DNA from: Rhodocyclales bacterium | GTDB taxonomy: Bacteria; Pseudomonadota; Gammaproteobacteria; Burkholderiales; Rhodocyclaceae | Assembly: GCA_026399475.1 (NCBI GenBank) | Contig: JAPLQY010000073.1 | Coordinates: 1-64,000, forward strand | DNA length: 64,000 nucleotides | Reading direction: 5' to 3' | Shown here: positions 34,844-60,136 of the stretch, in pieces | How positions within the stretch are numbered: position 1 is the first letter of the stretch | Layout: each line of letters begins with the position of its first letter | Notes under the pieces: model-generated | What the model was told of the DNA's origin: nothing | Database searches by the model: none | The model's input: the letters and a program-made list of their open reading frames with translations, nothing else | Program-made: the position numbers and the translations under genes

Positions 34844-34851
34844 TGATTCGG

Positions 34852-34922
34852 AAAACGTGAAATGTGAAACGTGAAACGTGATATCCGCGCGTCACGTTTC
34901 ACATTTCACGTTTCACGTTTCA
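34852..34922. repeat. GTGAAAN heptad inverted-repeat element, copy A
   Basis: Left arm about 34852-34882 contains GTGAAAT, GTGAAAC, GTGAAAC and GTGA in tandem; right arm about 34891-34922 is the inverse with GTGAAAC, GTGAAAT, GTGAAAC and GTGA when read on the other strand. About 8 bases separate them. The right arm supplies the TGA stop of ftsH. No ORF lies inside. It would form a long hairpin in the ftsH-folP transcript. Confidence 0.85.
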
Positions 34923-36800
34923 AGCGGGTGCCGGCGCGGTCGGCTCGGGGCCCGGCGCGCTATCGCCCCTGGGCGCCGGCGGCGCACTGGAAGGCTTGGG
35001 CGGGCGCGGTGGCAGGCCGGCCATGATGTCGTTGATCTGGTCGGCGTCGATGGTTTCCAACTCCAGCAGCGCCGCCGTCATGGCCTCGACCTTGTCGCGG
35101 TTGTCTTCCAGCAAACGGCGTGCGCGCGCGTACTGCTCGTCGAGCATGCGGCGAATCTCGGCATCGACTTTCTGCATCGTGGCTTCCGACATGTTCTTGT
35201 GCGTAGTCACCGAGCGGCCGAGGAAAATCTCGCCTTCCTCTTCGCCGTACACCATCGGGCCCAGACTGTCGGACATGCCCCACTGCGTCACCATGCGCCG
35301 GGCGAGATCAGTGGCGCGCTGGAAATCGTTGGAAGCGCCGGTGGTCATCTGCTGCATGAACAACTCTTCGGCAATCCGGCCGCCAAACAAAACGGCAATG
35401 GTGCAGAGCAGGCGTTCACGGTCCTGGCTGTAGCGTTCCTGATCGGGCAACTGCATGGTCAGGCCGAGCGCACGGCCGCGCGGAATCACAGTCACCTTGT
35501 GCACCGGGTCGGTCTTGGGCAGCAGCTTGGCCACCACGGCATGACCGGATTCGTGGTACGCGGTGTTCCTGCGTTCCTCTTCGGGCATGACCATCGACCG
35601 GCGCTCGGCGCCCATCATGATCTTGTCCTTGGCCCGCTCGAAGTCCTCCATGTCTACCAGGCGCTTGTTGCTGCGCGCGGCGAACAGCGCGGCTTCGTTG
35701 ACCAGATTGGCCAGATCTGCGCCGGAGAATCCCGGGCAACCGCGGGCCAGGATCGACGCGTCGATGTCCGGCGCCACCGGCACCTTGCGCATATGCACTT
35801 TGAGAATCTGTTCGCGGCCACGAATGTCCGGCAACGGCACCACCACCTGGCGGTCGAAACGACCTGGGCGCAGCAGGGCCGGGTCGAGCACATCGGGACG
35901 ATTGGTGGCGGCCACCACGATCACGCCCACCGAAGGCTCGAAACCGTCCATCTCGACCAGCATCTGGTTCAGCGTCTGCTCGCGTTCGTCGTTGCCACCG
36001 CCGAGGCCGGCACCACGCTGGCGGCCGACGGCATCGAGCTCGTCGATGAAGATGATGCACGGCGCTGCCTTCTTGGCCTGGTCGAACATGTCGCGCACGC
36101 GCGCGGCGCCAACACCGACGAACATCTCGACGAAGTCGGAACCGGAAATCGAGAAGAAAGGCACCTTGGCCTCGCCGGCAATCGCCTTGGCCAGCAGCGT
36201 CTTGCCGGTCCCAGGCGATCCGACCAGCAGCACACCGCGTGGAATGCGACCGCCGAGTTTCTGAAATTTGGACGGATCGCGCAGGAAGTCGACCATTTCA
36301 AAGACTTCTTCCTTGGCTTCGTCGCAGCCGGCCACATCGGCAAACGTGATGATGTTGGATGATTCATCCATCATCCGCGCCCGGCTCTTGCCGAATGAGA
36401 ATGCGCCGCCCTTGCCGCCACCCTGCATCTGGCGCATGAAGAAGACCCAGACGCCGATCAGCAGCAGCATGGGAAACCACGAGACGAAAATACTGGTCAG
36501 GAAGGACTGCTCTTCCTCGGGCTTGGCGACGACCTTGACGTTGTTCTTCAAGAGATCGGACACCATCCACAAGTCAGGTGGCGCGTAGGTGGTAATTCGC
36601 TTGCCATCGGTCGTGGTGGCTTCCAGCGTGCGGCCCTGAATCACCACCTTGGTGACGCGGCCCTGCTTCACCTCTTCGAGGAACTGGGAGTACTCCAGCG
36701 ATCCGAGCACGGTCTGGCGGGTATTGAACTGATTGAACACCGTCATCAGGACAATGCCGATCACCAGCCAGATCGCCATGTTTTTGAACATATTATTCAA
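34920..36800 (-). CDS. ftsH: ATP-dependent zinc metalloprotease FtsH
   Basis: Membrane AAA protease that degrades LpxC, sigma-32 and damaged membrane proteins. The 626-residue protein has transmembrane segments at about residues 6-25 and 100-120, Walker A GSPGTGKT (about 193-200), Walker [12 protein letters not shown], the SRH region and the zinc motif HESGH (about 416-420). The C-terminal tail is Pro/Ala-rich. Its TGA stop lies inside heptad-repeat copy A. Confidence 0.98.
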
Positions 36801-45474: not shown

Positions 45475-45933
45475 ATGACCCATCCCGACGACCTCAAGAG
45501 CATCGGCCTCAAGGCGACCTATCCGCGCCTGATGATTCTCGACCTCTTCCACAAGCTGCAGGATGAGGGTTCGCCGCGTCACGTCACGGCAGAAGATGTC
45601 TATCGCCACCTGCTGGCCGATGGCATGGATATCGGGCTGGCCACCGTCTATCGCGTGCTGACCCAGTTCGAGCAGGCCGGCTTGCTGCAACGCCACCATT
45701 TTGAATCCGGCAAGGCGATTTTCGAACTGAACGAGGGGCAACATCACGACCACCTGGTTTGCCTGCAATGCGGCCGGGTCGAAGAATTCTTCGATGCCGC
45801 GATCGAGAAACGCCAGATCAGGATAGCGGAAGAACGCGGCTTCACGGTTCGGGAACACGCCCTCTACCTTTACGTCGAGTGCAACAAGACTGACTGTCCC
45901 CACCGCAAATTGAGCGTGAAAAGTGAAACGTGA
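45475..45933 (+). CDS. fur: Ferric uptake regulator Fur
   Basis: Iron-responsive repressor, 152 residues. The winged-helix DNA-binding domain covers about residues 5-85 (IGLATVYRVLTQFEQAGLL is the recognition region). Metal sites are HHDHLVCLQCG (about 90-100) and CNKTDCPHRK near the end. The last codons, VKSET and stop, are formed by the left arm of heptad-repeat copy B, so the native C-terminus appears to have been replaced. Divergent from bamE. Confidence 0.96.
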   Translation: MTHPDDLKSIGLKATYPRLMILDLFHKLQDEGSPRHVTAEDVYRHLLADGMDIGLATVYRVLTQFEQAGLLQRHHFESGKAIFELNEGQHHDHLVCLQCGRVEEFFDAAIEKRQIRIAEERGFTVREHALYLYVECNKTDCPHRKLSVKSET

Positions 45934-45989
45934 CAAAAGCCGCCAGTAACCCAGGTTCTCCTCATCACATTTCACGTTTCACATTTCAC
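45916..45989. repeat. GTGAAAN heptad inverted-repeat element, copy B
   Basis: Left arm 45916-45934 reads GTGAAAA, GTGAAAC, GTGAC; right arm 45965-45989, read on the other strand, is GTGAAAT, GTGAAAC, GTGAAAT, GTGA. About 30 bases separate them and no ORF is inside. The left arm encodes the end and stop of fur, and the right arm ends 11 bases before the TTG start of the next gene. Confidence 0.82.
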
Positions 45990-54659: not shown

Positions 54660-55013
54660 CTATCTCACGATTGCAACTATTTGCCGCAGCAAAGCGGGCA
54701 GCGATGTCTGCACCGTTTCCCATACTACGTCGAGATCGATGTCGAAGTAGCCGTGAGCCATGCGATTGCGCATGCCGCGCATTTGTTGCCAGGGCAGGGC
54801 CGGGTGCGCGGCGGTGAATTCGGGACATTCCGAGGCGATCTTGCTCGCCGCCTCGCCGAGCACAATGAGATTGAGGATAACGGCCTGCTGCGTCTTCCGG
54901 TCGGCAAGAAAATCCTCTTTTGCCATGCCTTCGGTAAAGCTCATAGCCAAGGTGATGGCCTCGACCATGTGATCGAGATAGTCGAACGCACGCGAGTTGC
55001 CGGGCTCGCTCAT
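54660..55013 (-). CDS. hepT: HepT-like ribonuclease toxin
   Basis: A 117-residue HEPN-domain toxin of the HepT/MntA system. The R-x4-H-x-Y active-site motif is seen as RNRMAHGY (about residues 81-88). It starts inside the mntA stop, with the antitoxin gene first. HepT toxins cleave RNA or are silenced by AMP addition from MntA. Confidence 0.9.
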   Translation of the reverse strand: MSEPGNSRAFDYLDHMVEAITLAMSFTEGMAKEDFLADRKTQQAVILNLIVLGEAASKIASECPEFTAAHPALPWQQMRGMRNRMAHGYFDIDLDVVWETVQTSLPALLRQIVAIVR

Positions 55014-55300
55014 ACCGGCAGGGCTTCCCGGATCACCTGCTCGCGAAATCGCTTGGGCAGGTCCCCCGGCGTGAGTATGTCGACGGGAATACCCAGTACG
55101 GTTTCCAATTCGACCTGCATGGCGCCCAGATCGAACAAGGTGGCTCCCGGCAATGGGTCCACGAGCAAATCGAGATCGCTGCCATCAGCGTCGCAATGAT
55201 GAATGACCGACCCGAACACCCTCGCGTTGCGCACTGGGTAGCGTGCAACGGCCTGCCTGATGAGTTCCCGATTGTTCTGTAGTGCGATTGACGGCTTCAC
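55010..55300 (-). CDS. mntA: MntA-type nucleotidyltransferase antitoxin
   Basis: A 96-residue minimal nucleotidyltransferase. The GS-x10-D-x-D signature (residues about 30-45: GSVIHHCDADGSDLD) is intact, so it can probably AMPylate HepT. The GTG at 55300 is preferred; a longer reading to 55381 adds an unconserved tail. It overlaps hepT by 4 bases and is divergent from trxC. Confidence 0.88.
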   Translation of the reverse strand: MKPSIALQNNRELIRQAVARYPVRNARVFGSVIHHCDADGSDLDLLVDPLPGATLFDLGAMQVELETVLGIPVDILTPGDLPKRFREQVIREALPV

Positions 55301-55417
55301 GGCATCATTGTAGGTCAGGTCGTTTTCAGGACCAAGAATAGCTTGCGGGCCGCGAGCGCCGCTTGAATTTGCTGACGGCATCTATATATCAGTAACATCT
55401 GATATATGGAGCGCACC

Positions 55418-56543: not shown

Positions 56544-56619
56544 GTAAAACGTGAAAAGTGAAATGTGAAACGTGAGGGACGCAATTGAAGGACGTCACGT
56601 TTCACGTTTCACTTTTCAC
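56544..56619. repeat. GTGAAAN heptad inverted-repeat element, copy C
   Basis: Left arm 56544-56576 reads GTAAAAC, GTGAAAA, GTGAAAT, GTGAAAC, GTGAG; right arm 56594-56619 on the other strand is GTGAAAA, GTGAAAC, GTGAAAC, GTGAC. About 17 bases separate them. It lies between the grpE stop and the dnaK ribosome site (AAAGGAAATC), leaving the latter intact. No ORF inside. Confidence 0.85.
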
Positions 56620-56654: not shown

Positions 56655-58594
<1,940 letters not shown>

Positions 58595-58598
<4 letters not shown>

Positions 58599-59009
58599 AA
58601 CGGGAAACGTGAAAAGTGAAACGTGGTCACCGCGAGCTCCGGGTATGGCAGGAAGCCATGACGCTGGTGGAACTCGTCTACGCGATTACGTCCAGCTTTC
58701 CGAAAGAAGAACAATTCGGTTTGACCAGTCAAATGCGGCGAGCAGCGGTCTCCGTCCCTGCCAATATTGCCGAGGGCGCAGCCCGAAACGGTACTAAGGA
58801 ACTGCTGCACTTCCTTGGTATCGCTTCGGGTTCGCTATCCGAACTGGATACCCATATTGAACTTTCATCCCGATTGAAGTTCGTCAACGACACAAGCGAT
58901 GTCCAGAATAAAATCGACCAAGTATCCGCACTGATAATGGCCCTGTCCAAGTCCTTGCGTCAGAAGCTCTGAGCCAGACACGTTTCACATTTCACATTTC
59001 ACTTTTCAC
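58595..59009. mobile_element. Heptad-flanked four-helix-bundle cassette (copy D)
   Basis: Left arm 58595-58625 reads GTGAAAC, GGGAAAC, GTGAAAA, GTGAAAC, GTG; right arm 58979-59009, read on the other strand, is GTGAAAA, GTGAAAT, GTGAAAT, GTGAAAC, GTG. Over 31 bases they pair in register, with differences almost only at the seventh base of each heptad. They enclose one gene, a four-helix-bundle protein. The cassette separates dnaK from dnaJ and uses its arm as the dnaK stop. It looks like the coding member of the family whose empty members are copies A, B and C. Mobility is inferred. Confidence 0.55.
58616..58972 (+). CDS. Four-helix-bundle protein (23S-rRNA-IVS / Avd-like family)
   Basis: A 118-residue helical protein. 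The family pattern is clear: HRELRVWQEAMTLVELVY (about residues 5-22), FGLTSQMRRAAVSVPANIAEG (about 34-54), KELLHFLGIASGSLSELDTH (about 61-80) and a final helix. Members occur as intervening-sequence proteins in 23S rRNA and as Avd in diversity-generating retroelements, where they bind nucleic acid. The GTG start is the last full GTGAAAC heptad of the left arm, so protein start and repeat are inseparable. No reverse transcriptase is present. Confidence 0.85.
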   Translation: MKRGHRELRVWQEAMTLVELVYAITSSFPKEEQFGLTSQMRRAAVSVPANIAEGAARNGTKELLHFLGIASGSLSELDTHIELSSRLKFVNDTSDVQNKIDQVSALIMALSKSLRQKL

Positions 59010-59014
59010 GACTC

Positions 59015-60136
59015 ATGAGCAAACGCGACTACTACGAAATCCTCGGCATCAACCGCGATGCCTCCGACGAGGACATCAAGAAGGCCTACCGCAAGCTGGC
59101 CATGAAGCACCATCCCGACCGCAATCCGGACAACCCCAAGTCGGAAGACCACTTCAAGGAAGCCAAAGAGGCCTACGAGATTCTTTCCGACGCGCAGAAG
59201 CGTGCGGCGTATGACCAATACGGCCATGCCGGCGTCGATCCGCAGGCCGGCGGCCCGGGCGGAATGGGCGGCTTCGCCGACGCCTTCTCGGATATTTTCG
59301 GCGACATCTTCGGCGGCGGCGGGCAGCGCGGCGGCGGCCGCTCCAATGTCTATCGCGGCGCCGACCTGCGCTACAACCTGGAAGTCGCCCTCGAGGACGC
59401 CGCGCGCGGCACCGAGACCCGCATCCGCATCCCGACCATGGCCGAATGCGAAACCTGCAACGGCAGCGGCGCCAAGAAAGGTACCGAACCCAAGACCTGT
59501 CCCACCTGCGGCGGCCACGGCCAGGTGCGCATGCAGCAGGGCTTCTTCTCGATCCAGCAGACCTGCCCGAAGTGCCATGGCACCGGCCGTTACATTCCCG
59601 ACCCCTGCGGCACCTGCCACGGCTCCGGCCGCGTCAAGCAGCACAAGACCCTGTCAGTCAAGATTCCATCGGGCATAGACGAAGGCGATCGGATTCGTCT
59701 TACCGGCGAGGGCGAACCCGGCGTCAATGGCGGCCCGCCGGGCGACCTCTACGTCCAGATCCACCTCAAGGCCCACGCCGTATTCCAGCGCGACCATGAC
59801 GACCTGCATTGCGAGATGCCGCTCAGCTTTGCCACGGCGGCGCTCGGCGGCGAAATAGAGATACCGACGCTCGATGGCGTCGCCAAGCTCAAGGTGCCCG
59901 CTGAAACGCAGACCGGCAAGGTCTTCCGCCTGCGCGGCAAGGGCATTAAGGGCGTGCGCTCCATCAGCCACGGCGACCTGCTCTGTCATGTCGTGCTCGA
60001 AACCCCGGTCAGCCTCACCGAGCGGCAGAAGGAACTGCTGCAGGAATTCGAAATCATCAGCCAGGGCAACGCCCAGCGGCACAGCCCGCGCGCGCAAAGC
60101 TGGCTCGACCGGGTCAAGGATTTCTTCAGCAAGTGA
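59015..60136 (+). CDS. dnaJ: Chaperone DnaJ (Hsp40)
   Basis: Co-chaperone of DnaK, 373 residues. The J domain (about residues 5-70) contains the HPD triad in MKHHPDRNP; a Gly/Phe-rich region follows; four C-x2-C-x-G-x-G zinc repeats are [24 protein letters not shown] and CGTCHGSG (about 147-212). Its ATG is 5 bases after the right heptad arm, and no Shine-Dalgarno sequence is visible, so the insertion may have altered its translation. Confidence 0.98.

Follow-up and report, generated by a model that had tools for sequence, protein, structure and literature searches.

The window analysed here, a 64,000-nt stretch of a Rhodocyclales genome (G000), carries an element that fills the gap between dnaK and dnaJ, a single gene enclosed by two inverted arrays of a 7-bp unit, GTGAAAN (Table 1). 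The left arm reads GTGAAAC, GGGAAAC, GTGAAAA, GTGAAAC and a final GTG, and the right arm, when reverse-complemented, GTGAAAA, GTGAAAT, GTGAAAT, GTGAAAC and GTG. As stated in the original prediction, the arms are in register, differ almost exclusively at the seventh base and include the GTG start of the gene. The single exception is a T>G exchange in the second left heptad, and the start codon opens the last full heptad of the left arm. The entire element folds as RNA with its arms paired (z -3.7). In the window, 26 matches to GTGAAANGTGAAA with up to 2 mismatches were found, as compared with 2.39 expected and a maximum of 7 among 100 shuffles, which rules out a chance origin of the arrays. Three further inverted array pairs in the window, absent from the original prediction, contain no gene. 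The only RNA-gene match in the window was to a tRNA. Two small overlapping frames on the minus strand at 54660-55381 resemble what we take to be a HEPN/MNT nucleotidyltransferase pair.

Table 1. Coordinates of the dnaK-dnaJ element, its neighbours and the gene-less hairpins in the window.
Feature	Position	Strand	Remarks
Gene-less GTGAAAN hairpin	34850-34923		RNA fold z -8.4
Gene-less GTGAAAN hairpin	45916-45989		RNA fold z -5.8
Gene-less GTGAAAN hairpin, grpE-dnaK gap	56544-56619		RNA fold z -8.1
dnaK, upstream neighbour	56655-58598	+	Stop codon TGA within first heptad
Left arm, four GTGAAAN heptads + GTG	58595-58625	+	31 nt
PF05635 four-helix-bundle gene, 118 aa	58616-58972	+	GTG start inside left arm; model pLDDT 94
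Right arm, inverted GTGAAAN heptads	58979-59009	-	31 nt
dnaJ, downstream neighbour	59015-60136	+	Starts 5 bp past right arm

The encoded protein matches the PF05635 profile with 124.8 bits (cut-off 33.8, E 2.1e-36), confirming the predicted assignment to the 23S-IVS four-helix-bundle family. Its structural model matches 2gsc (XCC0516, E 2e-8) and 2rld (E 5e-4), the former being an assembly of five four-helix bundles according to the title of a reference. No catalytic domain was recognised in PF05635, and conserved polar residues are present in the protein.

The flanks of other PF05635 genes were compared using an arm score, for which both flanks of a gene were matched in inverted orientation without gaps and the best match was taken. 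In a first set, 55 of 79 loci, weak hits included, scored higher than 95% of 150 mismatched pairs; the top value of this control (147.5) exceeded every observed score, the control being inflated because relatives share units. In a second set, drawn from several phyla, 50 of 80 loci reached a score of at least 14. Of 200 mismatched pairs, 13 did so, and of 275 intervals of equal size taken from other parts of the same loci, 9. When the sets were pooled, clear inverted arms (score at least 13) were present at 107 of 159 PF05635 genes, with a period of 7 in 95, 8 in 11 and 5 in one, or, following removal of two duplicates, at 105 of 157 distinct genes, with a period of 7 in 93. Arms flank many other four-helix-bundle genes, but about a third (52 of 159) lack clear arms. 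Twelve armless loci considered as rRNA intervening sequences gave no Rfam match, and phage carriage was discarded as no match was found in the phage collection. Other PF05635 genes occupy a cas6-cas4 gap, a position between two cmr genes and one between ribonucleotide reductase genes (L267, L263 and L261, on cyanobacterial plasmids), and conjugation operons also hold copies. In genome G389, a PF05635 gene (L090) has a grpE-like stretch on one side and a dnaK-like stretch on the other, the second gap in the operon that holds the window element.

GTGAAAN did not prove to be the general flank of these genes, as the unit differs from gene to gene. The arm units of other PF05635 genes include GGGAAGN, GGCTTGR, GCAAGAG, GTGAYTN and GGGGCTA, with GGACTGA at a broken copy (assigned partly by eye), and GGGAATN at L160, a close relative of XCC0516 (E 1e-63). 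A PF05635 gene was found in the dnaK-dnaJ gap of 12 examined loci, where the arms consist of GTGAAAN in G000 and its congener G013, GGGAAGN in G009, L140-L142, L144 and L148, GGGAAAN in L146 and a mixture of GTGAAGN and GGGAAGN in L143, while L189 has no arms and L216 weak arms only. The unit has therefore changed at one locus, mostly on both arms. Across 93 genes, heptad similarity rises with protein identity (rho 0.28 for pairs below 60% identity, 0 of 500 permutations). Shared descent may account for part of this correlation, but genome G058 carries PF05635 genes with differing units.

The unit is also dispersed. Exact matches to GTGAAANGTGAAA among 61 genomes numbered 132 in G000, 77 in G013, 23 in G052, 10 in G008 and no more than 2 in any other; a backward-read control gave 14 matches in G000, part of which can stem from the arrays, and the G000 assembly has a contamination estimate of 9%. 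PF05635 was above the cut-off in six of these genomes (G000, G013, G009, G033, G047 and G058), so the two richest in GTGAAAN arrays both carry the gene, of which G000 has one copy, yet G052 and G008 have GTGAAAN arrays and no PF05635 gene above the cut-off. When 13 arms were searched jointly in their 12 source genomes, 285 matches were obtained, and 141 of the 150 listed, the elements' own arms included, were to the genome's own arm, a proportion equalled in 0 of 10,000 label shuffles. G033, G047 and G088 have the gene and few or no arrays apart from its own arms.

Inspection of 20 more array places in G000 identified 19 gene-less hairpins and one single short array (L232). The arms of 22 gene-less hairpins measured mostly contain 3-5 units (range 2-11) and enclose loops of 8-49 nt, and the seventh base of the measured heptads is C in 50, A in 37, T in 23 and G in 6. 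The loops have no long common sequence, which argues against the hairpins being deletion copies of the gene-bearing element, a derivation that was rejected. They are nevertheless slightly more alike than letter-shuffled loops (mean 11.6 versus 10.5 with 5 nt trimmed from each edge, 0 of 100 shuffles; best pair equalled by 7 of 100), and a residual weak shared signal or a composition effect would remain as the source of this likeness. The loop of one hairpin (L226) contains a perfect GC-rich hairpin of its own. Gene orientation around the hairpins, as judged by the longest frames, was dropped from the analysis, since wrong frames win in GC-rich DNA. At G000:C7:15031-15152 (L221), one arm has grown to 11 heptads, of which eight, consecutive or nearly consecutive, end in A, and the other arm has 4. 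Expanded arrays of this kind could result from replication slippage and from template switching driven by hairpins, with no element protein, the gene being incidental, and slippage is proposed for 7-nt repeats in the available text of PMC4679880. As the general origin of the arrays this is extremely doubtful, for it leaves unexplained the one-unit inverted pairs at unlinked sites, their match to the genome's own gene and the 423-bp gene-carrying insertion described below.

The dnaK-dnaJ gap was readable in 19 of 31 congeners. By eye, 3 of these have the element, one (G017) has a different array hairpin and 15 have native gaps of 106-129 nt with hairpins of their own. The reading of the locus as a mobile element, put forward in the original prediction, survives because arrays recur around PF05635 genes and empty sites exist, the arms and gene not being fixed at this position. 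Carriers are scattered on the dnaK/dnaJ tree, with G013 grouping with G004 (0.965) and G009 with G006 (0.939), and the PF05635 genes of G000 and G013 are 89.9% identical, about as much as their flanks (85.0 and 90.6%). This combination would fit either losses or, at a single site, repeated acquisition or local recombination. The idea of a small selfish element is supported, though not in the form proposed: the gene-bearing copy, found at the same locus in congeners elsewhere, seems stationary and the dispersed units are gene-less hairpins.

The gene-less hairpins also vary between relatives. Of those in the window, the hairpin at 34850 has a native one at its site in 7 of 10 congeners inspected and a different heptad hairpin in 2 (G011 and G017; by eye), that at 45916 is absent from all 10 congeners inspected, and that at 56544 is shared by G013 alone among the congeners read, with a different loop. 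At the 19 other gene-less sites of G000, a GTGAAAN hairpin is present in G013 at 8 of 18 readable sites, in G002 at 0 of 16 and in G017 at 0 of 14; four of the 19 were not compared in G017, flank anchors failed at the remaining unreadable sites, and congener flanks were too diverged for calling target duplications. Where both G000 and G013 have a hairpin, the loops clearly agree at L228 and L230 only (by eye). Other arrays occur at the same sites, namely octad hairpins in G017 at 6 of 14 readable sites and in G013 at L224, and in G002 an octad or nonad hairpin at 2 sites and a PF13366 gene at L221; these may only mark tolerant gaps. At the site of L229, where G000 has a heptad hairpin, G017 carries a unit of close to 41 bp (TGTCCCCGAACC...; L323) in roughly four tandem copies.

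The location of the hairpins at gene ends, their strength as predicted RNA folds and their occurrence where congeners have native hairpins (dnaK-dnaJ, grpE-dnaK and 34850) would be expected of an RNA regulon that serves the host, in which the protein binds heptad hairpins in mRNA for processing or termination and selection keeps and spreads them as cis elements. Conserved control elements would, however, be steadier than the counts for G013, G002 and G017, and even near-identical plasmids differ in whether they have a copy, and we regard such a regulon as rather unlikely.

The plasmid copies concerned are cyanobacterial. A PF05635 element is present on plasmid C of Trichormus variabilis and on a Scytonema plasmid but absent from four plasmids of other cyanobacteria with flanks about 98% identical. 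The filled sites are longer than the empty ones by 423 bp and an additional GTAAT, a 5-bp repeat found on both sides, and the insertion falls between two genes, after the stop of the first and before the start of the second. Four other plasmid sites compared were not clean, so the GTAAT repeat represents one locus. At the clean-insertion site, a Nostoc sp. C052 plasmid (L385, 935-1066) has a seemingly decayed copy consisting of the left arm and the start of the gene (by eye). A clean insertion with a 5-bp repeat, and the conserved polar residues, could indicate that the element is an ordinary small transposon with arrays for ends and the four-helix-bundle protein its transposase. PF05635 has no nuclease fold, however, and no gene copy was seen to have jumped recently within a genome, the paralogues being diverged or unalignable, and this role is very unlikely. 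Loci L100 and L101 are identical across the full 2.7 kb compared.

Genes for GxxExxY proteins (PF13366, PDDEXK_3), which we had presumed beforehand to lie near octad arrays, were then tested. Within the genus, PF13366 is matched in 13 of 31 genomes (19 matches), and inverted arrays of 8-9-bp units were present at 16 of 18 loci viewed. A phylum sample of 299 genomes contained 57 with a match; 25 of 30 loci viewed there score at least 14, as against 26 of 200 mismatched pairs. Array-flanked PF13366 genes were recorded among loci L332-L349 and L351-L380. The window genome has a PF13366 gene of its own at G000:C73:128952-129302 (L337), flanked by CGCAGAGG units. A search with five PF13366 arms in 12 congeners gave 53 matches in G002, 53 in G015, 65 in G017 and 63 in G027, those listed being mostly to the genome's own units, though G017 has PF13366 as broken gene pieces only. 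The same arms gave 17 matches in G000, 6, 1, 4 and 0 in G018, G023, G016 and G019, which have no PF13366 match, 2 in G004, 0 in G013, and only 5 in G008 though its arm was a query.

PF13366 is unrelated to PF05635, and the two families have a common layout and partly common sites. This, together with the lack of a known catalytic domain in PF05635, would be accounted for if an unseen enzyme acting in trans, such as a transposase, integrase or reverse transcriptase of the host or another element, moved the array hairpins, and the small genes were cargo trapped between two arrays. Cargo genes leave unexplained both the match of dispersed units to the genome's own arm and the tracking of the protein by its unit, and we judge this arrangement unlikely.

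The arms recurring at PF05635 genes, their gene-specific units, the dispersed copies, the presence or absence at orthologous sites and the one clean insertion with a 5-bp repeat were all observed directly. On balance, they are probably best explained by a two-part mobile system resembling REPIN/RAYT in its working but built of unrelated parts, a stationary protein gene and dispersed hairpins of its own unit. The stationary gene would encode a four-helix-bundle protein, the solved relative of which is a pentamer, and would end in inverted tandem arrays of a 7-bp unit whose sequence goes with the protein, while gene-less hairpins built from that unit and differing in their loops would be dispersed over intergenic DNA. 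As inferred from the sequences, the protein is likely to recognise its own unit, which it would bind on a folded single strand, perhaps with one heptad per subunit and four to five per arm. There is a better than even chance that it promotes hairpin spread, by the copying of units into short intergenic gaps, and the catalytic machinery may be that of the host. Against the two-part system stand the armless genes, the arrays without a gene in G052 and G008, the gene with few or no further arrays in G033, G047 and G088, the restriction of the 5-bp repeat to one locus, the absence of a recognised catalytic domain and the slight likeness of the loops, and the correlation between unit and protein could arise by shared descent alone.

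A wider reading, which we consider possible at somewhat less than even odds, is that these are widespread minimal mobile elements with ends forming a short-unit code that is read by the encoded protein. Units of 7 bp would be read by a pentameric four-helix bundle and those of 8-9 bp, independently, by a PD-(D/E)XK protein of PF13366. They would settle in operon gaps, often replacing native hairpins; rRNA intervening sequences would be a branch that landed in rRNA hairpins; and the gene-less copies would make up much of the bacterial heptanucleotide-repeat excess, including GGGAATC of Xanthomonas and probably the cyanobacterial heptads. If true, this would bring together a protein family with solved structures but no known function, heptameric intergenic repeats recorded without a cause, rRNA intervening sequences and the 23S_rRNA_IVP genes in cas loci. 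All of these could then be tested jointly, since the flanks of a PF05635 gene reveal the predicted ligand of its protein. Many bacterial phyla would also contain mobile DNA of ~50-430 bp with no recognised transposase.

Several known systems share features with the element. The Avd chains of diversity-generating retroelements (DGR; 4dwl and 8ub7) are similar in fold to the window model (Foldseek probability 1.00, TM about 0.75-0.78, E 0.08-0.4), but the window protein scores below the cut-offs of the Avd (23.8 bits of 80 needed) and bAvd (20.6 of 40) profiles. Like the ORF-bearing 23S rRNA intervening sequences of Coxiella and others, in which terminal inverted repeats form a long stem that is said to replace a small tetraloop (PMC4990558, in the text available), the element has a PF05635-family protein between terminal inverted repeats; it lies, however, in an operon gap outside rRNA. 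The presence of 18 23S_rRNA_IVP genes in cas loci was reported earlier (PMC3936711, in the part available). A candidate for the target-site duplication typical of transposons, GTAAT, was seen at one site. The PF13366 elements share inverted short-unit arms, dispersed same-unit hairpins and some of the sites but differ in their nuclease-like PD-(D/E)XK protein and longer units.

No literature linking PF05635 or PF13366 to short-unit repeats was found in a search that had preprints and most subscription papers outside its scope. For Xanthomonas, the accessible text of PMC4692102 gives 186 and 183 GGGAATC tracts in two genomes, most of four units, with 70 and 75 inverted pairs, and the Xanthomonas PF05635 genes have GGGAATN arms. 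Other intergenic heptads are GGGGAYT in Nostoc and TAACTGA in Beggiatoaceae (PMC4692102 and PMC4679880); the available portions of these papers interpret the repeats as G-quadruplexes or regulators and name no gene. The closest parallel in working is REPIN/RAYT, described in the available text of PMC8049555 as hairpins dispersed over intergenic DNA, each made of two inverted repeats around a variable spacer, together with one vertically inherited gene per genome that bears the same repeat. The gene-less GTGAAAN hairpins likewise pair two inverted repeats around a variable spacer. G000 has a single PF05635 copy and the gene keeps its locus in congeners elsewhere, but the dnaK-dnaJ carriers are scattered on the tree. 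The systems differ in the gene, which is PF05635 here and not a REP-associated tyrosine transposase, and in the repeat, here a 7-bp tandem array with a unit that varies from gene to gene.
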